From IMG/VR virus record IMGVR_UViG_3300020219_000062, positions 1-26,160 of that record: a stretch of DNA of 26,160 nucleotides. The stretch is one strand, 5' to 3'. The number at the start of each line of letters is the position of its first letter. Position 1 is the first letter of the stretch. Source of the DNA: a virus. Made by a program: the position numbers and the translations under genes. Below, piece after piece: positions 536 to 12,032 of the stretch. A model generated the notes under the pieces. That model was not told where the DNA came from. It did no database searches and saw only the letters and a program-made list of their open reading frames with translations.

Positions 536-3500
536 ATGGCTCTTGGACCTTTTATCAGCTACGTCCCGCCAGGGGCCTACACCCGCACGTTGACGGAAGC
601 GAACGTCGCTCAGATCGTCGCTGGCATCCGTATTCCCGTCGTCCTCGGCGTCGGGCAGGAGGAGCTGACCCAGAGCGATGTCGAGATCGTGCGTGGCAGC
701 TCCGCAACCGTTGACCAGCAGATCAACAACGAGGACGTTAGCCTCGCGTGGGTCGTAGACTCGACGAACCCGCAGAACCTCATCCTCGGCGTCCAAGACG
801 GCACCAGGACCATTCTGCGCGTCCGCAACTACCCCATCGTCGACGGGCAGGGCTTCGGCCGTGTGACCAACGACACCCGTTCGGTCACCGTGACGGTGAA
901 CGGGTTGCCGGTGTCGATTGGCGGGGTGAGCGGCCAGCGGGGCCTCATCACCCTCCAGGTCCCGACCCAGCCCACGGACCTCGTCCGGGTCACCTACTTC
1001 TTCCACCGGGGCGACACCGCCTTCACCGACGACGTGTCGGCCCAGGTGTCGAGCACGGCGGCCCAGCTCACCACGCCTGGCTTCGCCCCCTTCACGATCG
1101 TCACCGGGTCGAACGACACCTTCAGCCTGAAGGTCAACGGCACGACGTATTCGGTGGTCTTCGCGGCAGGCGCCACCACGGCAGCCGGGCTGAAGACCCA
1201 GATGGACGCGGCGGCCATCACCAACTTCTCGACGGCCGTCTTCACCGACAACAACGGTCTCGACCACCTGCTCTTCACCGCGACCCAGGCCATCGAGATC
1301 CTGGACGGCACGGCCAACGGCCCTCTCGGCTTCCAGCCGGGGACGAAGACCAGTCGGGTCACCTCGTTCGAGGTCTTCAACCGGCCCGTCGTGGATGGCT
1401 CGGGCGGCGGTACGACCACGACCGACACCTCGAAGGTCGTGGTGAAGGTCAACGGGCTCCAGGTGATCCCGACGGCCGTGGACGGCGCCAACGGCCGGGT
1501 CACCCTCGGCTTCGCCCCGTCCCTGGGCTCGACGGTCACCGTGACCTACTGGGCCAACACCTGGCAAGACACGTTCGACTACCTGCCGAACACCCTGATC
1601 ACGACGGTCACCCGCTGCGGCATCTCGCCCGGCCGGGCCGACTACATCCAGGGCCAAGACTTCGTGGTGTCGAACCCGTCGGCCGACGTGTCGATCCTTC
1701 ACTGGGGCACCAGCGCCTCCGTGGTCCCCGGGACCACGACCCCCGGGGCCGAGCCCTTCGACGGCACGCAGGTCATCCCGGCTCTCAACGATGACCAGAT
1801 GTACCTCGGCGAGTGCGAGAGGTTCGTCGACAACACGGTCATCCCGGCCCTGGCCAGCTCGACGAAGTTCTTCCTCCCCGAGATCCCGACCACGGGCAAC
1901 GGCCGTAACACGCCCCTCGGCGTAGCGCTGTACACCTCCGTCACCAACGGCAAGCAGGACGTGGTCACCAACCGACCCGACCTCGTGGTCGTTCGGACGG
2001 GGCGCAACCTCCGTGACGCCATGAACCGGACGGCGGCCACCGTCCTCTCGGTCGATGGTGCCAGCCGCGTCGTCACCCTGAAGGACCCGGTCCCGCCGGA
2101 TCATATCGCCTTCGCCACGTTCTACTACAACCGCATCCAGGACGAGACCTACCTCCTGACGTGCGTTGTCCCTGGGCCGGTCGGTGCTGGGCAGTACACG
2201 ATCTTCGGGACGACCCTGAACGCGAACCTGTACCAGACGAGGTTCGGTACCAAGTCGGGCCTCGCCCAGACCGTCCAGTGGCCAAGGGGTGTCGAGCAGG
2301 TCCCCGACGCCTTCCACACGGGCGCTGGCGATGCGGTCTCCGAGATGGTCACCGTGACCTTCTCGATGGCCCTCGCGAAGAACGCGGCCTACACGACCAA
2401 GGGCCAGGGCCCCTGGTCGTTCTACTCGCCCTTCTCGGCGACATGGACGACCAAGCTGAACGGCAACAACTACGCGACCAACTTGGCCACGGCGGCTCCC
2501 GCTGTGCTGGTGAGCGGTCATGTGGTGCCCATCCAGACGGGCATCGACACCGGGAAGATCAACATCCCGGTCGGGTCGGACGCCTTCAACGTCACCATCG
2601 ACGGCGTGGCCTTCCCGGTCACCCTGACCACGGGCAACAGGACTGCGACCCAGATCTGCGGCGAGATCGATGCCGCGGTCGGTTCCGCGGTGGCGTACTT
2701 CGTCCAGATCGGCCCCTCCACGGGCGACATCGTGTTCTTCATCAAGAGCACGACGACCCCGGGCGCTCTCCCCGGTGGCCTCGATGTGGTCTCGACCGTC
2801 CGTATCGACTCGGGTACGGCAGAGACCCTGCTCGGCTTCGCGGCCTTCCAGTCGGCCGCCGGGACCACGGGGGCCATCAACAAGGCAGCGACGCTGCTCG
2901 GCACGATCGCCGGCCCCTTCAACATCACGACGGGTCTGAACGACACGTTCAAGTACCGCCTGAACGGCACCGACTACACGGCGACGCTGCCTGCGGGCGT
3001 GGCGGTGACCACGGCGGCGGTGGCGGCGGCCATCAACGCCGTCACGGCCGGCGTCGCCTCGGCCGGTACGCTGCTCAACCTGAACATGCTCAGGCTGATC
3101 TCGACGGTCAACGACGCCACCAGCGCGCTGATCATCCTGGACGGCAACGCGAACCTCACCCTGGGCTTCACCCAGAGCCAGTCGGCGACCCAGACCCTCG
3201 TGGACCCCCAGGAAGTGGTCTCCGCCCTCATGGCGACCGCGGGCTTCGTGGTGGACGGCTTCGCCTACGTGTCGGTCATCGACACGGCCCGCTACCTCAC
3301 CATCGAGTCGATCGCGGTTGGTCTGACCACGTCGTCGGTCTCCTTCGTCACGGCGGCCAACTCGGCCTTCAACACGACCACGGGCGTGAACATCACCCCC
3401 GGCGTGGACGGGGACTCAGGCGAGGACGCGCAGCAGATCTACACGGTCACCTCGAACAACCCCCTGGGGTCGGACGGGACGGGCATCCCCGGGCAGACCT

Positions 3501-4774
3501 ACACCGACGCGAGGACGGGTCTTCGCTTCACGGTCCTGCCGGCACTGGCGGGCAACTACACCAACGGGGGCAGCTTCACCCTGCCGGTCTCGCCCACGTT
3601 CGTGGTCGACCCGAGCCGCCCCTTCTACGCCATCCCGGGCCTGGAGACCACGGTGTACAACACCGTCGGCGTCGCCGTGAACGACTCGGCGTCGCTCCAG
3701 ACCTTTAACCCGGGCGGTGTCGAGCCCAGGGTCGGGGACTTCTACTTCGTGAGCTACCGCTACATGAAGCAGGACTTCGCGACCCGCCTCTACCGTCAGA
3801 CCAAGACGATCGAAGCGTCGTTCGGTAGGGCGTCGGGCGAGAACCGGGTCACCCTCGCGGCGAACCTGGCCATCCTGAACGGGGCCCTGCTGGTCGGCAT
3901 CAAGCAGGTCTTGAAGGTCCCGAACACCAACCAGGCGTCGGACGCGAGCTTCATCGCGGCCATCGACGAGCTGGCGACGCCCCTGCCCGGCAACATCAAG
4001 CCGGACATCCTGGTCCCGCTCGCGACTTCGACCGCGATCTACTCGTACCTCACGCAGCACGTCGAAATCCAGTCGAACATCCGCAACCAGGCGGAACGGA
4101 TGGGCTTCATCGGGTTCGCGTCGGGCACTATCCCGGCGAACGTCCAGGCCATCGCGAGGGCCCTGAACTCGAACCGCATCGTCGCCTTCTACCCCGACTC
4201 GGCCGTCATCACGATGACCGACGAGCTGGGGCAGAACTTCGAGCAGCTCGTGGACGGGACGTTCTTCGCAGCAGCGGTCGCCGGGGCCGTGGTCAAGGCG
4301 TCGGTGGACGTGGCGACCCCGTACACCCGCAAGACCATCCTGGGCTTCACCCGCATCCCCCGCATCCTCGACCCCGTGGAAGCGAACCAGACGGCGGTGG
4401 CGGGGGTCACGATCCTCGAAGACATCGACCCGATCATCCGTATCCGGCAGGGACTCACGACGAACATGTCGAACGTCCTGACCCGGCTGCCGACGGTCAC
4501 GCAGATCGCCGACTTCGTACAGCAGCAGAGCCGGCTCTCGCTCGACGCCTTCATCGGGACCAAGTTCCTGGCGTCGCGGACGAACGAGGTCAACGTCACG
4601 ATGACCTCGCTCTTCAAGACGATGATGCAGGCGGAGATCGTCGGGGCGTTCACGGGGCTCTCGGCCTCGATCGACCCCGAAGACCCCACGGTCATGCTGT
4701 TCGAGGCGTACTACCAGCCGGTCTTCCCGCTCCTGTGGATCGTGCTGACGTTCAACCTCCGCGCGAGGCTCTGA
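536..4774 (+). CDS. Contractile tail sheath protein, unusually large
   Basis: The protein has 1412 residues. It would polymerise around the tail tube and contract to drive injection. The N-terminus (residues 8-45: PPGAYTRT, then a VPVVLG-like strand) is typical of myoviral sheaths. The last ~330 residues (about 1085-1412) look like the conserved sheath core, with a late FTRIPRILDP segment, a VNVTMTSLF strand and a terminal beta segment ending in FNLRARL. Most sheaths are 400-700 residues, T4 gp18 being 659. The excess here is in the middle and consists largely of repeated beta-rich units: two modules at residues 97-168 and 280-349, and three at 184-270, 675-772 and 791-885. These probably form surface domains. 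A strong ribosome site precedes the gene and a terminator follows it, as expected for an abundant structural protein. The start is well supported. Confidence 0.92.
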   Translation: MALGPFISYVPPGAYTRTLTEANVAQIVAGIRIPVVLGVGQEELTQSDVEIVRGSSATVDQQINNEDVSLAWVVDSTNPQNLILGVQDGTRTILRVRNYPIVDGQGFGRVTNDTRSVTVTVNGLPVSIGGVSGQRGLITLQVPTQPTDLVRVTYFFHRGDTAFTDDVSAQVSSTAAQLTTPGFAPFTIVTGSNDTFSLKVNGTTYSVVFAAGATTAAGLKTQMDAAAITNFSTAVFTDNNGLDHLLFTATQAIEILDGTANGPLGFQPGTKTSRVTSFEVFNRPVVDGSGGGTTTTDTSKVVVKVNGLQVIPTAVDGANGRVTLGFAPSLGSTVTVTYWANTWQDTFDYLPNTLITTVTRCGISPGRADYIQGQDFVVSNPSADVSILHWGTSASVVPGTTTPGAEPFDGTQVIPALNDDQMYLGECERFVDNTVIPALASSTKFFLPEIPTTGNGRNTPLGVALYTSVTNGKQDVVTNRPDLVVVRTGRNLRDAMNRTAATVLSVDGASRVVTLKDPVPPDHIAFATFYYNRIQDETYLLTCVVPGPVGAGQYTIFGTTLNANLYQTRFGTKSGLAQTVQWPRGVEQVPDAFHTGAGDAVSEMVTVTFSMALAKNAAYTTKGQGPWSFYSPFSATWTTKLNGNNYATNLATAAPAVLVSGHVVPIQTGIDTGKINIPVGSDAFNVTIDGVAFPVTLTTGNRTATQICGEIDAAVGSAVAYFVQIGPSTGDIVFFIKSTTTPGALPGGLDVVSTVRIDSGTAETLLGFAAFQSAAGTTGAINKAATLLGTIAGPFNITTGLNDTFKYRLNGTDYTATLPAGVAVTTAAVAAAINAVTAGVASAGTLLNLNMLRLISTVNDATSALIILDGNANLTLGFTQSQSATQTLVDPQEVVSALMATAGFVVDGFAYVSVIDTARYLTIESIAVGLTTSSVSFVTAANSAFNTTTGVNITPGVDGDSGEDAQQIYTVTSNNPLGSDGTGIPGQTYTDARTGLRFTVLPALAGNYTNGGSFTLPVSPTFVVDPSRPFYAIPGLETTVYNTVGVAVNDSASLQTFNPGGVEPRVGDFYFVSYRYMKQDFATRLYRQTKTIEASFGRASGENRVTLAANLAILNGALLVGIKQVLKVPNTNQASDASFIAAIDELATPLPGNIKPDILVPLATSTAIYSYLTQHVEIQSNIRNQAERMGFIGFASGTIPANVQAIARALNSNRIVAFYPDSAVITMTDELGQNFEQLVDGTFFAAAVAGAVVKASVDVATPYTRKTILGFTRIPRILDPVEANQTAVAGVTILEDIDPIIRIRQGLTTNMSNVLTRLPTVTQIADFVQQQSRLSLDAFIGTKFLASRTNEVNVTMTSLFKTMMQAEIVGAFTGLSASIDPEDPTVMLFEAYYQPVFPLLWIVLTFNLRARL
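824..1039 (+). repeat. Sheath beta module a, copy 1 (residues 97-168)
   Basis: This copy has the pattern P-VDG, a T/S-rich strand, V.VNGL.V, G..G.(I/V)TL, V.VTY and a following D.F. It aligns without large gaps to copy 2 at residues 280-349. It looks like a small Ig-like or beta-sandwich insertion. Confidence 0.6.
1085..1345 (+). repeat. Sheath module b, copy 1 (residues 184-270), flagellin-IN-like
   Basis: The pattern is TG.NDTF, NGT.Y, AG, an Ala-rich helix, then ILDGTAN..LGF. It shares TG.NDTF, NGT.Y, ILDG.AN and LGF with the copy at residues 791-885. The pattern resembles flagellin hook-IN-type repeats seen in flagellar and phage structural proteins; that link is from memory. Confidence 0.6.
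1373..1582 (+). repeat. Sheath beta module a, copy 2 (residues 280-349)
   Basis: Second copy of the VDG / VNGL.V / RVTL / VTVTY module, directly after module b copy 1. Order along the protein is therefore a-b-a. A weaker third relative may lie at residues 481-541 (RVVTLKDPVPP then FYYNR). Confidence 0.6.
2558..2851 (+). repeat. Sheath module b, copy 2 (residues 675-772)
   Basis: The most diverged copy. It keeps I..G.D.F...IDG..F...L..G.RTATQI, an Ala-rich helix, a GDIVFF strand and GTAETLLGF. The next copy begins about 20 residues later. Confidence 0.55.
2906..3190 (+). repeat. Sheath module b, copy 3 (residues 791-885)
   Basis: A clear copy with NITTGLNDTF, LNGTDY, an Ala-rich helix, ILDGNAN and LGF. 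It is followed at residues 888-950 by a segment resembling a second half-unit (Ala helix, YLTIES strand, SSVSF, A.SAFNTTTG), which may be a partial fourth copy at 3197-3385. Confidence 0.6.
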
Positions 4775-4789
4775 TGTAGGCGGGCGATG

Positions 4790-4836
4790 AAGGCGGTGGG
4801 TTGGCTGTCAGAAAGCTGGCCCACCGCCTTTCGTTT
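4790..4836 (+). terminator. Rho-independent terminator after the sheath gene
   Basis: An 11-bp perfect stem pairs 4790-4800 (aaggcggtggg) with 4820-4830 (cccaccgcctt). It extends inward by G-T wobbles and a GC/CG pair to a ~9-nt loop. The tail is tttcgttt. It sits 16 bp after the sheath stop and 31 bp before the helicase start, so it separates the two transcriptionally, at least in part. Confidence 0.8.
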
Positions 4837-4867
4837 AGGTGTAGTTCTCTTGTTCTGAGGGTTCCCG

Positions 4868-7800
4868 ATGATGATCTCCTACGACCGTTCCGCCGTGCCC
4901 CAGGCAGCCGCAGCTCCCTTCGTCCGCCAGGCAGCGGACGAGCCCGATGACGGGCTCGACATTGACCTGACCGAGCTTCAGGTCGCGGACTACATCGTCT
5001 TCCTCCTGGCCCTGGAGACATACATGGGCTGGCTTCAGGAGACGGGCCGCGGGGAGGACGAGACGCTCAAGAATGGTGTCGCTCTCGCGAGGGTGGCCGA
5101 GCGGCAGAATCTCGAAGCCATCGGGGCCTTCATCAAATCGAACCTCTCAGACAAGGCCACCAAGGCCACGTTCGCGCTGCTCGACGCGGCCCTCCGACCA
5201 CCCCCGACGCCCCGGGGCCTGGCTCTCCGGGCGGTGAAGCTCCGTACCGTGCTCTCGAAGGGGGGCACGGCGACGACCAAGGCTGTCTTCGGCACCTCGG
5301 CCAAGGCCAAGGGGCAGGTTCAGGAGGCCATCGACGCTTCGATGATCGATGACCCGGACGCCGCGCTCAACAAGTTCGCGGTCCTCACGCTGAAGAACAA
5401 GAAGCTGGAGAAGTGGATCGACGAGGCCAGCGCGGTTTGCGTGACCCCCGGTACGGCCCAGATCAGCCCTGTTCGTGAGGCGGCTCGTGGGGCGACGGAC
5501 GCTTCGGCCGAGCTGGTCAAGGCCCAGGTCATCCAGGACGTGAAGTCGGGCACCGACGCCTCGGCCGACGCCCGCGACAAGCAGACCCAGGTGCTCACCC
5601 GGGTCCAGTCGGACGCGACGGCGGCGGCCAAGAAAGCCATGGACCAGGCGGGCGAAGTAGACCGCCCGCTCACCAAGGCTGAGGTCATCGGTGTGGCGAC
5701 GGCGGCGGCAGTGGCCGTCTCGTCCGACACCGACAAGGTCCAGAACGTCCCCCCGGCCCTCGCCAAGCTCGACCCCGAGCAGCGGGCGGCGGCCATGACG
5801 GGCGGCAAGGTCCGGGTCTCGGCCGGCGCCGGCTCCGGGAAGTCCACCACGCTTTTGGCCCGGGTCCAGTACCTCATCGACGGCGGCGCCACGCCGAACC
5901 GCATGATGGCCATGTCCTTCAACAAGAAGGCAGCCGACGAGCTGGCGATCAAGATGGCCGGCAAGATCGGGGATGACCGGGTTTCGACCACGCAGAAGCC
6001 GAACCCGAACGGTGTTCGGGTCGGCACCATGCACGCGGTCTTCCTGAAGTTCATCAACGAGTACGGCTTGCCCGAGCAGAAGGCCATGTTTGCCAAGGTG
6101 AACAACCGAGGCGGCATCGTGAAGGCCGAGAAAATCTTCTCCGCGGTCAAGGAAGTCTGGGACGAGTGCTTCCGGGACATCGACAAGAACCCCCCGGGGG
6201 ACCCCGATGGGACCCCTCGTGAGCTGCCCCAGGATGAGCTGTGGAAGATGCCCCCGAAGTCGAAGCGGATGATGGCGTACCTGAACCTCTTCCAGGGGCA
6301 GGGTTGGTCGCTGGCCCAAGCGACGGAATGGGCCAAAAACGAAGACGCCCTCGAAGCTGACCAGGCCCTCAAGTTCTTCGAGGTCTACGAGGGTCTCAAG
6401 GGTGGTCTCGGCGCCGCGTGGCGGCCGAACTTCTGCCCCGAGAAGCCGTCGCGGGCCTTTGACAAATTTGTGAAGTCCAACCGGGACGGCAAGTCGCAGG
6501 CTGGCGACTTCAACGATATGCTGGCGGTCTTCCACAATATCATGAAGACCCAGCCTCTCGCTCAGAAGAAGGTTCAGGAGCAATTCGACCACATCATGGT
6601 CGACGAGTGCCAGGACTTGAACCCGCTTCAGTTCGACATCCTCCAGATGATGACGGAGCACGTCGAGACCGACGACCCCAAGAAGTCGTTCTGGATGGTC
6701 GGCGACGACAAGCAGAGCATCTACCAGTTCCGCGGCGCCGACCCGAACAACTTCATCGCCCTCGACCAGATGGGCTTCAAGGACCGGCAGATCACCACGA
6801 ACTACCGGTGCGCCCCGGAGTTCGTCGACGCCGCCAACAAGCTCATCGCCGTCAACGAGAACCAGATCCCGATGGAGGCCAAAGCGGCCCCGAGTCGGGC
6901 TCGGGGTGAGGCGAGTCTCCGGGTCCTGAAGGTCCAGGATGAGGTCGCGGCAGCCCGTGTGTTCGGTGCGAAAATCCGGGATGCCGTGGCGGCGGGAGAA
7001 CCTCTCTCCAACTTCGCTGTTCTGGCCCGGACGAACGCCGAGCTGGGGGTCTACCAGCAAATGTGTGCTGCCCTGGGCATTCGTTACGTTCAGAAGAAGG
7101 CCACGTCGGTCTTCTCGGCGCAAGAGAGCGAAGCCTTCCGGGCCTTCGCTTCGTCGGTGGTCGCTTCGTCCCCAGCACAGGTCCAGGACCAGTTCTGCCA
7201 GACGCTCATGTCGGCAGGCTTGCTCAACCCGAAGCTCGACGTCGATCGAACCGAGAACCAGAAGAAGGCGCTCCAAACGATGAAGGGTGTCTTCCGGGAG
7301 TACTGCTCGCGGAACCGTATCGACCTGAACACCTTCGACCCCATCGAAGCGGCAGCGAACACGTCAACCTTCCTCCCGTTCGTCCTCAGCAAGTTCGGGG
7401 TACCTGACTTCGGGGCGAAGAAGGACGCGGCCAAGGCCGGGCCGCTCCTTCAGGGCGTTCTGCAACTTCAGGAGTACATGGCGGACCCGGACTTCACGTC
7501 CAAGGATCTGTTTGCGGGTATCATGGCGCTGCCCGTCGTGAGCCTCGTGCCCCCCGACCAGTCCCCGACGGGGAAGTGGCAGGAGATCATCCAGACCTTC
7601 GGGGATAGCACCGTGAAGCGTCTGGCTGCCAGAGCTGCCCAGGAGGATGCCGACGAAGACTCCGAGCTGGGGGACGATAAGGGGCCGGGCTTGGGTATGC
7701 TGGATTTCGTGTACGACATGCTCCAGCCGAACGATGTCGACCCCAACTACAACCCGCAGAACCCGCGGCAGTTCTTCGACCGCTTCGAGGGCCTGGCCGC

Positions 7801-8416
7801 CAAGGGGGCCGAGCTTCGGATGGACCCCGACGTGTGGGACAAGAAGCAAGCCGAAGAGGGTATCCCCCTCGCTCAGCGTACGCCTCCCCCGGGCGTCTAC
7901 CTCGGGACGGTCCACTCCACCAAGGGGGCCGAGTGGGAGGATGTCACTCTTCTCATGCCGCTCGGTGTCTTCCCCGCGCAGCGAATGCCCCCCAAGCCCC
8001 GGCTCAATCAGGTCCCCGAGCACGACTTCGTGGACTCGCAGTCGAAGATGGAGTCGGAACGTCGTCTCGGCTACGTGGGTCTGACCCGGGCCAAGAAGGT
8101 GATGACGATCCTCGGCCCGGGTGGGCTCAGCCCCTTCGTGGAGCAGGCCGGGCTGAAGGTCGGGCAGAACGTGCCTCAGCCCGCGACCTCCATCTCCGGG
8201 GAGGTCTTGGCCACCACGGCTGACGTGGCGGCGGCCGAAAACGACGGTGAAGAGGCCATAACCATCGAGGATGATGACTTGCTGCCGTTCGGCGACGAGG
8301 ATGACCGTATGGTCGATCACCTGATGCGGCAGGCGGGGCTCGGCTTGCGTCGTCAGAAGACGGCCTCGGATGCGTCCCCCACCCAGGGCTACAGCTACCA
8401 GAGGAGCGCCAAATGA
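4868..8416 (+). CDS. UvrD/Rep-family SF1 DNA helicase with long unassigned N-terminal region
   Basis: The protein has 1182 residues and should be an ATP-driven DNA strand-separating enzyme. The superfamily 1A motifs appear in order: a Q-motif-like LDPEQRAA (301-308), Walker A SAGAGSGKST (318-327), FNKKAADEL (351-359), VGTMHAVF (385-392), Walker B VDECQD (578-583), VGDDKQSIYQFRG (611-623), TTNYRC (643-648), VHSTKGAEW (1015-1023) and YVGLTRAKK (1069-1077). The catalytic residues look intact. Residues 1-300 and the last ~90 have no motif I recognise; 205-260 is Ala/Lys/Gln-rich and probably helical. Typical UvrD or Rep proteins are 650-750 residues. The start has gagg about seven bases upstream; the ATG at 4871 is an alternative. 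The stop overlaps the next gene as ATGA. It lies between sheath and tube, an odd place for a helicase. No nuclease motif is obvious, which argues against AddA or RecB. Confidence 0.93.
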   Translation: MMISYDRSAVPQAAAAPFVRQAADEPDDGLDIDLTELQVADYIVFLLALETYMGWLQETGRGEDETLKNGVALARVAERQNLEAIGAFIKSNLSDKATKATFALLDAALRPPPTPRGLALRAVKLRTVLSKGGTATTKAVFGTSAKAKGQVQEAIDASMIDDPDAALNKFAVLTLKNKKLEKWIDEASAVCVTPGTAQISPVREAARGATDASAELVKAQVIQDVKSGTDASADARDKQTQVLTRVQSDATAAAKKAMDQAGEVDRPLTKAEVIGVATAAAVAVSSDTDKVQNVPPALAKLDPEQRAAAMTGGKVRVSAGAGSGKSTTLLARVQYLIDGGATPNRMMAMSFNKKAADELAIKMAGKIGDDRVSTTQKPNPNGVRVGTMHAVFLKFINEYGLPEQKAMFAKVNNRGGIVKAEKIFSAVKEVWDECFRDIDKNPPGDPDGTPRELPQDELWKMPPKSKRMMAYLNLFQGQGWSLAQATEWAKNEDALEADQALKFFEVYEGLKGGLGAAWRPNFCPEKPSRAFDKFVKSNRDGKSQAGDFNDMLAVFHNIMKTQPLAQKKVQEQFDHIMVDECQDLNPLQFDILQMMTEHVETDDPKKSFWMVGDDKQSIYQFRGADPNNFIALDQMGFKDRQITTNYRCAPEFVDAANKLIAVNENQIPMEAKAAPSRARGEASLRVLKVQDEVAAARVFGAKIRDAVAAGEPLSNFAVLARTNAELGVYQQMCAALGIRYVQKKATSVFSAQESEAFRAFASSVVASSPAQVQDQFCQTLMSAGLLNPKLDVDRTENQKKALQTMKGVFREYCSRNRIDLNTFDPIEAAANTSTFLPFVLSKFGVPDFGAKKDAAKAGPLLQGVLQLQEYMADPDFTSKDLFAGIMALPVVSLVPPDQSPTGKWQEIIQTFGDSTVKRLAARAAQEDADEDSELGDDKGPGLGMLDFVYDMLQPNDVDPNYNPQNPRQFFDRFEGLAAKGAELRMDPDVWDKKQAEEGIPLAQRTPPPGVYLGTVHSTKGAEWEDVTLLMPLGVFPAQRMPPKPRLNQVPEHDFVDSQSKMESERRLGYVGLTRAKKVMTILGPGGLSPFVEQAGLKVGQNVPQPATSISGEVLATTADVAAAENDGEEAITIEDDDLLPFGDEDDRMVDHLMRQAGLGLRRQKTASDASPTQGYSYQRSAK

Positions 8417-9087
8417 ACCCCGTGATGCAGCGTCAAGCGAAGGTCGAGCCCGCAGTCATCACGCGGGAAATGATGGACAAGGTCATCCGCCGGTCCTTCC
8501 GGGCGCTGGACCCCAAGCCCGGCAACGACAAGGGTGAGCTGTACTACGACCTCTCTGTGGAAGAGGTCGGGGACGCGGTCATTCGTGTGTACACGTCCAT
8601 CGGCTCAAGCGGCACGTCCTTCGGTGTCGGGGATGATGCCATCCGGGTCGGGATCTTCGCGGGGGGCCGGCCCTTGAAGGCCGGCAAAATGCCCATCGTC
8701 AAGCGTATACAGAAGAGAGACGAAAAGACGGGGGTCGTGACGCAGCTCTGGCCCGACAACCTCCGGACCCGGATCGAAGACGCCATCGAGGAAATCGAGT
8801 CGCTCGGTGAAGAGCGGGCTCGGGCTCAAGACCTGGCCAAGCAGCAGGTCCAGCAGCAGGTCCAGCAGCAGCAGGCCCCTGACGCCTTCCGGGCCGAGCG
8901 GAAGCGGCAAGGGCTGATGCTCGAAGACCTGGCCGACGCCGAGGCCGCGGGGAAATTCCGCAACGTCGCCCCCGGCACCCGCGGGCCCTTCTCTCAGATG
9001 CTCGACAAGATGCTGGCCAACCGGAACATGCTCCTCTCAGAGAAGCAGCTCGCCTGGGCCGAGCGTGAGCACCGGCAGCTTCGATGA
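8413..9087 (+). CDS. Unknown protein with Gln-rich repeat, coupled to the helicase
   Basis: The protein has 224 residues; its ATG overlaps the helicase stop (ATGA). Residues 55-135 form a compact alpha/beta-looking region with VYTSIG, a GVGDDAIRVG strand and a later LWPDNLRTRIEDAIEEI helix. Residues 143-155 are almost all Gln and Val. Near the C-terminus lies FSQMLDKML followed by LSEKQLAWAERE (208-219). From memory, VYTSI...DAIRV and a terminal F..ML...LSEKQ..W both occur in small viral and archaeal proteins of unknown function that tend to accompany nucleic-acid genes; I cannot verify this. Coupling to the helicase suggests a partner or accessory factor. No transmembrane segment or signal peptide is visible. 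The coding call is strong; the function is unknown. Confidence 0.85.
   Translation: MNPVMQRQAKVEPAVITREMMDKVIRRSFRALDPKPGNDKGELYYDLSVEEVGDAVIRVYTSIGSSGTSFGVGDDAIRVGIFAGGRPLKAGKMPIVKRIQKRDEKTGVVTQLWPDNLRTRIEDAIEEIESLGEERARAQDLAKQQVQQQVQQQQAPDAFRAERKRQGLMLEDLADAEAAGKFRNVAPGTRGPFSQMLDKMLANRNMLLSEKQLAWAEREHRQLR
8841..8875 (+). repeat. CAG-rich short tandem repeat in the coding region
   Basis: Repeated cag units, interrupted twice by gtc, encode a Gln-rich stretch broken by two Val residues. Such tracts can change in copy number without disturbing the frame. Confidence 0.7.
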
Positions 9088-9596
9088 GCTGCGATGACCC
9101 GTGCCTGCCTGTCGCCACGGAGGTTTGCAAGATCCCGGTCGACTACTTCATGCCCATCGGGCAGACACGGGTGCGTTTCGTCGCCTTGCTCCCCGCCATC
9201 CTTCGGGCCTGGGGGCCGGTGTTCGACCCAAAGGACATCCATCAGGCTGAGCTTCGGGCGGCTTCGACCCTGGCCCAGACGGGCATGATACGCGGCCAGG
9301 CGTTCGCGTTCATGCGGCAGGGTGCCGTCCTGACCCAAGCCGAGACCGCGACGCTCCTCGGCGTGACCCCCCTCGTCATCCAGGCGTACGAGAACGAGAC
9401 CGTCCCCCTGCCCATGACGGCCTGGAAGACGCTCGCCCACTACGTGACCGACCTCGACGGCCGGGACCACTACATGACGACGCCTCCCTGCCCCACGGAG
9501 AGCTGGCAGCGGCGGGACATTCGCGTCTACCCGGACTTCCCCATGCAGTCCACGCAGCCCCCCATGGGCGTAGACAACGGGTGTATACCCTGTTGA
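9084..9596 (+). CDS. XRE-like helix-turn-helix protein with cysteine-rich termini
   Basis: The protein has 170 residues; its ATG overlaps the preceding stop (ATGA). Residues about 67-120 look like a Cro/CI (XRE) helix-turn-helix: LTQAETATLLGV as the helix-turn, VIQAYENETVPLP as the recognition part, then a closing helix AWKTLAHYV. The N-terminal 60 residues and the last 50 match nothing I recognise. Cysteines lie at positions 3, 7 and 15, and the protein ends in CIPC, so metal binding or a disulfide is possible. An HTH protein coupled behind a helicase and inside a tail operon could be a regulator of late genes, a DNA-binding adaptor, or a structural protein that has taken over an HTH fold. 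The HTH call is moderate to good; the role is inference. Confidence 0.75.
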   Translation: MSCDDPCLPVATEVCKIPVDYFMPIGQTRVRFVALLPAILRAWGPVFDPKDIHQAELRAASTLAQTGMIRGQAFAFMRQGAVLTQAETATLLGVTPLVIQAYENETVPLPMTAWKTLAHYVTDLDGRDHYMTTPPCPTESWQRRDIRVYPDFPMQSTQPPMGVDNGCIPC

Positions 9597-10427
9597 ATGC
9601 CCACCCTTGAGCTGAACGCCACGCTCGACCCGAAGGCCCCCGCCGTCCTCGATGACACCATCACCTTCGAGACGGGGGCCAGCTTGCAAGAGGTGGCAGA
9701 CCTCACTACCTATACCTACAACCACCATGGGCCGGGGTTCGGGGCAGCTCACCCGGGGGCGTTGACGGCGTTCTTCGAGGACTTGGTGCTCGGCCGGCCG
9801 ATGCCGCTCCGGATGGTGGCGAGAAGCATCGAGGGCATGGACACCATCGTGGCCTTCGCCCTCTTTTTGCACCGGGACCTGGCCATCGCAGCCAGGACGC
9901 CGGGCTTCGTGGGGGCGGTGGACTTCCTTCACCGCCGGGGGCGTACGACCCTGGGGCACGTAGACCCGGAGACGGAGCAGCTCGTCTACCTCCTAAACAC
10001 CCCCGACGGGTCGGTGTCCGACTGGCTCCCCCGGGCCATAGGCTGGGTCCGGGGCTACTTGCTGGAGGGTACGGTTCCTGGGACCACCCGGCGGGCCCAG
10101 GTGCGGGTGCTCGACCGGGGGACGGACGGCTTCGTCGTGGCCGCGACGGCCGAGCCGCAGCTTGATAGGGTCTGGGTCGAGCTGTACCGGCAGGGCTTCC
10201 TTCGGGGCGTGGTCTTCGGGCCCGAACACCAAAGCCACCGGCCCGTGATGGTGAGCCGCAAGAGCGCCTACGTGAGGCTCGATCTTGCGAAGGCGTGCTC
10301 GATTCTGACCGACATGGAGCAGGCCATGGGGCTCGTCTCCGGCTGGCAGCTCGATGGGCTGTGGCTTTCGACCGAAGGGACGCTCCTGCTCCCGGAGCAC
10401 ATTCTTCAGGTGCTCGCTCGGGTCTAG
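9597..10427 (+). CDS. Unknown protein, weakly reminiscent of DHH-type phosphoesterases
   Basis: The protein has 276 residues. Its ATG directly follows the TGA of the HTH gene with no spacer, so translation is probably coupled; it ends in TAG, the only TAG stop in the window. Residues 39-48 hold a YNHHGPGFG motif and residues 82-96 a hydrophobic helix with Asp82, His92 and Asp94. HVDPE lies at 121-125. The C-terminal third has V.LDL (226-230), GW.LDG (249-254) and a final LLLPEHILQVL. A His-His pair, an Asp-bearing helix and a C-terminal substrate-like domain recall DHH or MYG1-type metal phosphoesterases. However, the canonical DHH triad is not seen (NHH replaces DHH), so this is only a hint. 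No signal peptide or membrane segment is clear. Coding confidence is high, function low. Confidence 0.8.
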   Translation: MPTLELNATLDPKAPAVLDDTITFETGASLQEVADLTTYTYNHHGPGFGAAHPGALTAFFEDLVLGRPMPLRMVARSIEGMDTIVAFALFLHRDLAIAARTPGFVGAVDFLHRRGRTTLGHVDPETEQLVYLLNTPDGSVSDWLPRAIGWVRGYLLEGTVPGTTRRAQVRVLDRGTDGFVVAATAEPQLDRVWVELYRQGFLRGVVFGPEHQSHRPVMVSRKSAYVRLDLAKACSILTDMEQAMGLVSGWQLDGLWLSTEGTLLLPEHILQVLARV

Positions 10428-10454: not shown

Positions 10455-11276
10455 GTGCCGAAGCTCACGACTGTCACGGTGGGGACCGACGGGAATATCG
10501 ACTACGTCGAGACGCCCGATGGGGTGAAGTACGCCCTGGGTACGACCTCAGTTCTCCAGCTCATCGCGAAAATGGTGTCCGGGCAGCGCCTCCGAAAAGA
10601 GGCCGTCGAGACGTTCAACAAGGACGGCGCGGCCATGGTGGTGCTCGACCTGGACGCCTTCTTCGAGATGCTGACGCCTGTTCGGAAGAGGTGGGCTTCC
10701 AATAGTTCACTTTTTCGCGATGCAGATCGAGACGATCCCCTTCGAGGTACTCCCATGGACAAGGCCGAATTTATCAAGCGGCTCGCGTGCTGCGAGCAGC
10801 AGGTCAAGAAGCTCACCGACACCCCGTCGCCTGAGGCCACGTCGGCTCTCGTTCAGGCGGTGGCTTCGATCAGCCTCCCCAGCTTCGGCGACCCGTCGAA
10901 GAACAACTCTTTCATGAGCCTGGGCCAGCCCAAGCTCGACACGGTCGAAGACCCTGGCGCCTACACGCCCCCGACGAGCGTGACGCACCCCCTGGGCAAG
11001 TCGGCCAACTTCCAGACGCTTCAGACCAACCTGAAGATGGCAGAAGAGATCGTCGAGAAGGTCGACCAGACCGACACCAAGATCGACGCCCTGGTCACCG
11101 CCGGCCGGAAGTTCAACGCTTCCCAGGCCCGCTCCGACCTGCACACCATCGTCGCCACCCTCGTGTCGATGCTCAAGCAGGTCGACCCGGCTCAGCCCTG
11201 GGTCACCGCCGAGCTTCAGAAGCTCGCGAACCAGGCGACGGAGATCCACGGCCTCTTCGCCCCCGCGAAGGTCTGA
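10455..11276 (+). CDS. Unknown tail-module protein upstream of the tube gene
   Basis: The 273-residue reading starts at GTG 10455, with no good Shine-Dalgarno site. An internal ATG at 10755 (residue 101) has gagg seven bases upstream and would give a 173-residue product beginning MDKAEFIKRL. The frame is open throughout, so both readings are possible. Residues 1-80 contain beta strands around an NIDYVETPDG turn. The second part is mostly helical (CCEQQVKKL, LKMAEEIVEKVDQTDTKIDAL, LVSMLKQVD) and fits a small coiled-coil assembly or structural protein. Position just before the tube suggests a tail role. I do not recognise the family. Confidence 0.75.
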   Translation: MPKLTTVTVGTDGNIDYVETPDGVKYALGTTSVLQLIAKMVSGQRLRKEAVETFNKDGAAMVVLDLDAFFEMLTPVRKRWASNSSLFRDADRDDPLRGTPMDKAEFIKRLACCEQQVKKLTDTPSPEATSALVQAVASISLPSFGDPSKNNSFMSLGQPKLDTVEDPGAYTPPTSVTHPLGKSANFQTLQTNLKMAEEIVEKVDQTDTKIDALVTAGRKFNASQARSDLHTIVATLVSMLKQVDPAQPWVTAELQKLANQATEIHGLFAPAKV

Positions 11277-11315: not shown

Positions 11316-12032
11316 ATGACCGTCAAGACTGATAACTACATCTACCGCATGGGTACCGCCCCCAACACGCGGGCGGCGACTTCCCAGAAGAACAAGGTCT
11401 ACGGCTACAGCGTGGGGGCCAAGGGCTTCCAGCAGCTCGGGGCCATCTCGGAGTTCGGCTTCGATGAGTCGCGGACCATCGACCCGGTTCGCGGCATCGG
11501 CTACGGCGACATGATCGCCGAGCTGGTCCCCGGCGTAACCGAGCCGATGACCCTGACCCTCAACAAGACCCTGCTCTACACCGCCAACCTGCTTCAGATG
11601 GTCGGCTACAAGGGCGGCATCGACGGCATGATCAGGAGCCTCCGTCACCACCGGTGGCCGTTCGACATCAAGCAAGAGCTGGTCTTCTCGGAGATCGCCG
11701 GCAAGTTCGATGGCAACACGACCCCCACGGCCACCATTCTGCCCGGGTCGGGCGGGACGAGCGGGTCGGCCGATAACATCCTCATCCGGATCATCGCGCT
11801 CTTCACGTACTTCGAGGGGTGTTGGTTCAACAGCTACGGCGCCTCGTTCACCTCGGACGCTGCGATAGTGTCTGAGAACAGCTCGGTGACGGTGACCGAC
11901 ATCATCGACGGGACCAGCCAGTACGGTGAGTTCATCGACACCGGGCTCGCCCCCCTGGGTAGCAACGGAGCACCGGGTAAGGGGTATTCGATGCGCTTCG
12001 CGTCTGCATCGAACACCAACACCGACTTCTGA
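11316..12032 (+). CDS. Probable tail tube protein
   Basis: The protein has 238 residues. The composition is beta-rich and cysteine-poor, with no signal peptide. A central segment runs GFQQLGAISEFGFDESRTIDPVRGIGYGDM and then EPMTLTLNKTLLY. This fits the strand pattern of phage tail tube proteins, in which a strand naming a feature of the molecule precedes a G-rich turn and a T.TL.(K/R) strand. The C-terminal half holds Gly/Ser/Thr-rich loops (700-nt scale) and ends in SNTNTDF. Typical myoviral tubes are 150-250 residues. It precedes two chaperone-like genes and the tape measure, the usual order downstream of a tube gene. A good ribosome site precedes it and a large stem-loop follows, both consistent with high expression. 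The assignment is from context plus strand pattern, not from a diagnostic motif. Confidence 0.72.
   Translation: MTVKTDNYIYRMGTAPNTRAATSQKNKVYGYSVGAKGFQQLGAISEFGFDESRTIDPVRGIGYGDMIAELVPGVTEPMTLTLNKTLLYTANLLQMVGYKGGIDGMIRSLRHHRWPFDIKQELVFSEIAGKFDGNTTPTATILPGSGGTSGSADNILIRIIALFTYFEGCWFNSYGASFTSDAAIVSENSSVTVTDIIDGTSQYGEFIDTGLAPLGSNGAPGKGYSMRFASASNTNTDF

Follow-up and report, generated by a model that had tools for sequence, protein, structure and literature searches.

A helicase–partner gene module between the tail sheath and tube genes in a clade of megaphages

Gene layout and the surrounding clade

The window, that is, the whole stretch of DNA analysed here, is an IMG/VR fragment of 26,160 bases, in which a cassette of genes is located between a sheath-like and a putative tube gene. 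The following features, all on the + strand, were considered.

536–4774, +: sheath-like tail protein (1412 aa), the upstream flank; present in 40/48 contigs
4790–4830, +: terminator-like hairpin after the sheath stop codon, with 20-nt arms that are 80% complementary
4868–8416, +: HEL, UvrD/SF1A helicase (1182 aa), called from profile matches and catalytic motifs, with a unique N-terminal domain and a C-terminal tail
8413–9087, +: GLN (224 aa), dedicated partner protein of HEL, always directly downstream of it
9084–9596, +: HTH, XRE-like protein (170 aa) with weak HTH matches, an optional member (21/48 contigs)
9597–10427, +: HH, DHH/DHHA1-like protein (276 aa), called from AlphaFold and Foldseek and a co-conserved motif set
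10455–11276, +: CHAP (a label only), conserved tail-operon protein between HH and the tube gene; 47/48 contigs, tracking HH and the tail genes
11316–12032, +: putative tail tube protein, the downstream flank, with a weak match to phrog_985; 46/48 contigs

A preliminary description of this DNA had proposed four fused genes at 4868–10427, and this was confirmed, the open reading frames being co-directional and the junctions ATGA, ATGA and TGA/ATG. The block had also been placed ahead of a tube module; a tube gene does lie downstream, but the conserved CHAP frame intervenes. With regard to the flanks, the call of 536–4774 as a contractile-tail sheath gene is supported by PF17482 (Phage_sheath_1C), a weak but specific match with a best E of 7e-4, found in the C-terminal domains of 5/9 relatives. 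Less secure than the sheath call is that of the tube, which relies on position and on phrog_985 ('virion structural protein'), matched in six of eleven relatives with a best E of 0.0025. At 1412 aa, the sheath protein is unusually long, and its internal modules (phrog_19400 match) recur in a second protein of related genomes.

The strong terminator that had been proposed ahead of the block held as far as the hairpin at 4790–4830 is concerned, while its T tract is weak. The region 4775–4867 folded with −41.6 kcal/mol (z −3.6), and a stem of at least 11 bp followed the sheath gene in 15/37 relatives, compared to 2/185 shuffles and to 0–10% after other genes. Given this recurrence, the cassette probably begins a new transcription unit behind the sheath hairpin; with a weak T tract and a search for sigma-70 promoters that found none, this unit is put forward as a prediction.

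Relatives were collected by searching viral contigs for HEL, HH, sheath and tube; 48 contigs proved usable, including one near-identical pair. Several reach 250–512 kb, and the window is therefore assigned, by sequence relationship, to a megaphage clade. Outside this clade, the nearest public records, both distant, were LR745208 (485 kb, uncultured) and Tunturi_5 (309 kb), the latter described as having a contractile tail and an Acidobacteriota host (PMC11924767). When binned genomes were searched for a host, a single MAG contig was recovered. As a side observation, the major capsid proteins of ingroup genomes (L145–L164) are approximately 85–93% identical, and the identity of their HEL and GLN proteins is far lower.

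The helicase, its partner and the accessory proteins

The intact SF1 helicase announced for the first gene was corroborated. HEL matched the Pfam UvrD-helicase family (E 4e-44) and phrog_1967 (E 7.5e-77), scored above the Pfam cut-offs for PF00580 (151.7 bits; cut-off 23) and PF13361 (UvrD_C; 67.9 bits; cut-off 25.6), and carried the catalytic motifs GSGKST, DECQD, GDDKQSIYQFRGA, VHSTKGAEW and LTRAK, whose key residues varied little or not at all among 21 divergent HELs. The nearest solved structure was PcrA (1pjr, E 4e-26). Walker A, Walker B and motifs III–VI are thus shared with the UvrD/PcrA/Rep SF1A helicases (phrog_1967), from which HEL differs in an N-terminal domain of ~290 aa, in its tagged tails, in its constant neighbour GLN and in its location within a tail operon. 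That N-terminal domain (about residues 1–290) had no match in Pfam or PDB. Two closer assignments were discarded, namely a PcrA/Rep/UvrD equivalog (below the NCBIfam cut-off; 153 bits versus 911 for PcrA) and an AddA/RecB helicase–nuclease (96 bits versus 696 for RecB, with no nuclease domain found).

In-frame inteins were present in 10/38 HELs (those of L103, L067, L023, L031, L089, L045, L097, L102, L096 and L092), at four recurrent catalytic-motif sites that correspond to residues 325, 580, 616 and 1016 of the window HEL; the L096 protein contained three, in a frame of 2,444 aa. Inteins in such motifs fit the predicted role of HEL as a working, constrained enzyme. An apparent intein was also seen in a protease-like head-module gene beside scaffold-like and capsid genes (G014 151328–154093, spanning L138/L139).

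Each large genome examined had one HEL copy, inside the cassette, and DnaB was encoded separately and elsewhere in 18/19 records. HEL was therefore rejected as the only replicative helicase of these phages. Motor domains homologous to that of HEL occur in the UvrD-type helicases of SPO1-like phages (Adastra), Moorella phage MTATph1 and Bacillus phage G. Unlike HEL, these are encoded in non-tail regions, with no tail genes in their 7-kb flanks, and in MTATph1 the helicase directly follows a UvsX-like recombinase gene.

The second gene is real, but the glutamine richness for which it had been named is confined to a brief stretch of the protein and does not characterise the family. The AlphaFold model of GLN (pLDDT 91.5) comprised an alpha/beta domain, long helices and a C-terminal helical hairpin, and had no meaningful PDB match or known fold; searches of phage isolates and GTDB genomes found no GLN homologues. 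In the hairpin of the window protein (residues about 192–224; gene 8413–9087), an LSxKQxxW-like motif was noted, with a similar one in an outgroup GLN, and some other GLNs have a different C-terminal region resembling phrog_987/DUF3072. GLN and HH represent two protein families that lack a convincing assignment in the libraries searched. For the XRE-like label of the third gene, a weak match was recovered, although below the cut-offs: Pfam HTH_19 at E 0.004 (17.6 bits versus 30.2) and, in NCBIfam, an MqsA-type family at E 4e-4 (20.1 bits versus a cut-off of 61.8).

The motif after which HH had been described is present as [EN]HHG in most relatives and absent from one subclade. No named family was matched in Pfam or NCBIfam, Pfam DHH included, and phage isolates yielded no HH. 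Its AlphaFold model (pLDDT 95.4) retrieved GdpP (probability 0.98), PAP phosphatase (0.95), the C-Ala domain of AlaRS (1.00) and NrnA (0.85) in Foldseek, each of these matches having an E higher than 1e-3 and a low TM. The motifs FETG, [EN]HHG, D82 and D109..H112R are largely kept or lost together: D82 and H112 occur in 33/33 proteins with HHG, while among the 13 without it D82 is found in three and H112 in one. This is as expected of a putative active site that has degenerated in one subclade. By predicted fold and co-conserved HH/Asp motif set, HH may resemble the DHH/DHHA1 phosphoesterases (NrnA, GdpP, RecJ/Cdc45 superfamily), from which it is set apart by an [EN]HHG that precedes D82, by the loss of the motifs in a subclade and by the lack of a sequence-family match. 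In canonical DHH enzymes, the DxD motif comes first, before DHH; since the order in HH differs, membership is not claimed, and HH is probably a DHH-like protein acting on nucleotides or nucleic acids, as judged from the model.

These resemblances raise the question of whether the whole block could be a counter-defence island, composed of a helicase, a DHH-like phosphodiesterase degrading signalling nucleotides and a regulator. The nearest predicted folds (GdpP, NrnA, PAP phosphatases) and the variable extra genes in the sheath–tube interval would suit such an island. However, HH tracks the tail and is kept in 46/48 contigs, whereas typical counter-defence genes are patchy; one subclade has lost the motifs of HH; and PADLOC matched HEL to GajB only as a generic UvrD protein, with no GajA among the cassette proteins, on which grounds a Gabija (GajAB) assignment was also dismissed. 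We consider this explanation very improbable.

Recurrence, exchange and insertion of the block

The cassette recurs, more than by chance, across dozens of divergent contigs, with HEL in 39, GLN in 38, HH in 46, HTH in 21 and CHAP in 47 of the 48. Wherever HEL and GLN were both found (38/38 contigs), GLN was directly downstream, and the only HEL without GLN, in contig 017917, is highly divergent. Nine contigs lacked both in the sheath–tube interval; these are fragments, and the corresponding genomes may carry the pair at another site. Five lineages, that of the window among them, have exactly HEL-GLN-HTH-HH, and in most of the rest the order is HEL-GLN-HH. In a subclade of eight contigs, HH is inverted upstream, giving HH(−)-HTH-HEL-GLN-CHAP(-TUBE). 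When LR745208 served to root a tree of the tail genes, drawn without node support, the deepest branch of the ingroup had the cassette, and HEL and GLN were jointly missing in at least five separate places, which would need at least five independent losses.

Pairwise protein distances among the relatives were then compared; as the pairs are non-independent, the figures that follow are descriptive. The partial correlation given the tail proteins was 0.40 for HEL–GLN, compared to 0.14 for HEL–HH and −0.03 for HEL–CHAP, and HH–TUBE showed a rank correlation of 0.65. Distances of HEL and sheath were nearly uncorrelated (rho −0.10), unlike those of HH or CHAP. In line with this, the closest tail relative of the window, 049491_357, shares 81% identity in the sheath and 84% in the tube but only 43% in HEL, while relative 036715 shares 70% in the tube and 60% in HEL. 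A break was located inside HEL near residues 240–320, the N-terminal domain being closest to 049491_357 and the motor to 036715 and 008261, and the N-terminal domain tracks GLN with a rho of 0.59 versus 0.33–0.46 for the motor regions. Together, the distance correlations and the mosaic break suggest an exchangeable HEL motor coupled to GLN through an N-terminal adapter domain.

Thus, the block recurs as the preliminary description had anticipated, conserved, co-directional and behind a hairpin, but as modules, its exact order being limited to the five lineages. The idea of one indivisible four-gene unit had to be abandoned: on these comparisons the two genes of the HEL-GLN module are missing together and are exchanged independently of the tail genes, which HH and CHAP follow, and HTH is an optional member.

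In the outgroup LR745208, sheath and tube are adjacent with no cassette between them, which bears out the proposal that the block interrupts an ancestral gene order. This huge phage has both HEL and GLN in the same relative order and orientation as the window; unlike there, the pair is on the strand opposite to the tail genes, outside the sheath–tube interval and near DnaB. From this arrangement we infer that HEL-GLN was inserted into the interval and then mostly kept. As far as the sequences tell, the placement of this new helicase–partner module is real, conserved, unusual and ancient.

The simple rearrangement of an ordinary replication helicase, named beforehand as what would undo the proposal, is borne out only halfway, by the outgroup location outside the tail operon and near DnaB; the pair was subsequently retained across most of the clade. 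HEL could still be an ordinary replication or repair helicase that came to lie in the tail operon by historical accident, without any tie to late timing or to virion function. That same outgroup location, the homologues in non-tail regions of other phages and the lineages in which HEL-GLN is missing from the interval would agree with such a history. In contrast, the position has been kept across lineages despite the HH inversion and inserted genes, and the recurrent hairpin sets a new unit at this very point. We regard the accidental placement as doubtful.

Terminal motifs and the role of the pair

The C-terminal tail of the window HEL reads KTAS ... YSYQRSAK. A YDRR-like tag was found at 21/38 HEL C-termini (0.43 expected from shuffles) and at 12/33 N-termini (0.26 expected), and [KR][TQEVLI]A[AS] at 18/38 C-termini (1.2 expected from shuffles), figures that are uncorrected for the choice of motifs noticed before the shuffle test and that come from related, not independent, sequences. 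Controls (HH, g9, whole proteomes) were at chance, except that CHAP C-termini exceeded shuffles for [KR][TQEVLI]A[AS]. These motifs might be capsid-targeting or processing signals, as the short terminal signals of P1 DarB are known to be (PMC9024508).

A serious rival, although one on the unlikely side, is that the capsid takes up HEL and GLN, guided by the HEL tail signals, and that both are ejected with the DNA so as to act at once on it as it enters. The location of the HEL-containing intervals inside a structural operon, motifs far above shuffles at both HEL ends, K[TQ]A[AS] in head-module proteins of G014 (MCP, scaffold-like and protease-like) and the precedent of injected proteins bearing helicases (PMC5512222) all favour packaging. 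However, in MCP the motif falls within conserved sequence of the protein body, for which reason the MCP N-terminus was discarded as proof of a protease site and of cleavage; a head-module protein carries the tag only inconsistently (4/20 versus 1.0 expected), and the tag found no genome-wide support as a general virion signal; the HEL of LR745208, encoded elsewhere than in the tail operon, nevertheless has KTA motifs in its tail; and HEL does not follow the sheath in the distance comparison, unlike HH or CHAP.

HEL is like P1 DarB and the polyvalent injected proteins in being a helicase-containing, presumably late product with short putative signals at its ends and a candidate for packaging (PMC9024508, PMC5512222). 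In the methylase–helicase polyvalent proteins, the helicases are mainly of the SWI2/SNF2 type and fused to a methylase (PMC5512222), whereas HEL is of the UvrD type and only a candidate for packaging. By analogy with DarB, a packaged pair might unwind incoming DNA, strip host proteins from it or resist restriction, tasks that we likewise hold to be rather unlikely. The specific version of this proposal, a virion-borne SF1A HEL-GLN complex sorted to the capsid by YDRR-like and KTAS-like signals and ejected for the processing or protection of very long DNA as it enters, also appears improbable.

We tentatively favour, with confidence somewhat short of even, late DNA processing in the infected cell by a two-protein HEL-GLN helicase machine. 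HEL would be an active 3'–5' motor of the UvrD family, its polarity and activity following from homology, and its unique N-terminal domain would couple the motor to GLN, presumably by physical binding. Relocation of the pair to the late tail operon would date back to the ancestor of the megaphage clade, and the two proteins would be made late from the unit beginning behind the sheath hairpin. They would act on phage DNA late in infection alongside the separate DnaB replicative helicase; candidate tasks are the clearing of bound proteins, recombination-dependent replication and the readying of concatemers for packaging. HH and CHAP would be tail-linked neighbours outside the machine, and HTH an optional extra. 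This reading draws on the helicase homology, the motifs, the linkage and co-absence of HEL and GLN, the module exchange, the insertion and the separate DnaB as established by comparison of the sequences. Against it, retention between sheath and tube over deep divergence could equally fit virion packaging, and the enriched terminal motifs of HEL resemble targeting or processing signals.

In either case, this clade-wide helicase–partner module, lodged between two tail genes of phages that are among the largest, offers a concrete test case for the carriage of DNA motors within giant-phage particles, and leads to the prediction of an exchangeable motor tied to a dedicated partner by a conserved N-terminal adapter.

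Similar tags were observed in other proteins. A conserved protein encoded beside the terminase (L139:16923–18263; G014 168923–170263) contains repeated YERR-like tags and KQAS, and its G015 orthologue ends in YSYDRT. Likewise, a handful of proteins whose genes precede that of the sheath have YDRR-like tags at one end (L049:1838–3301, L019:724–1518, L023:6189–7154 and L052:6211–6927).
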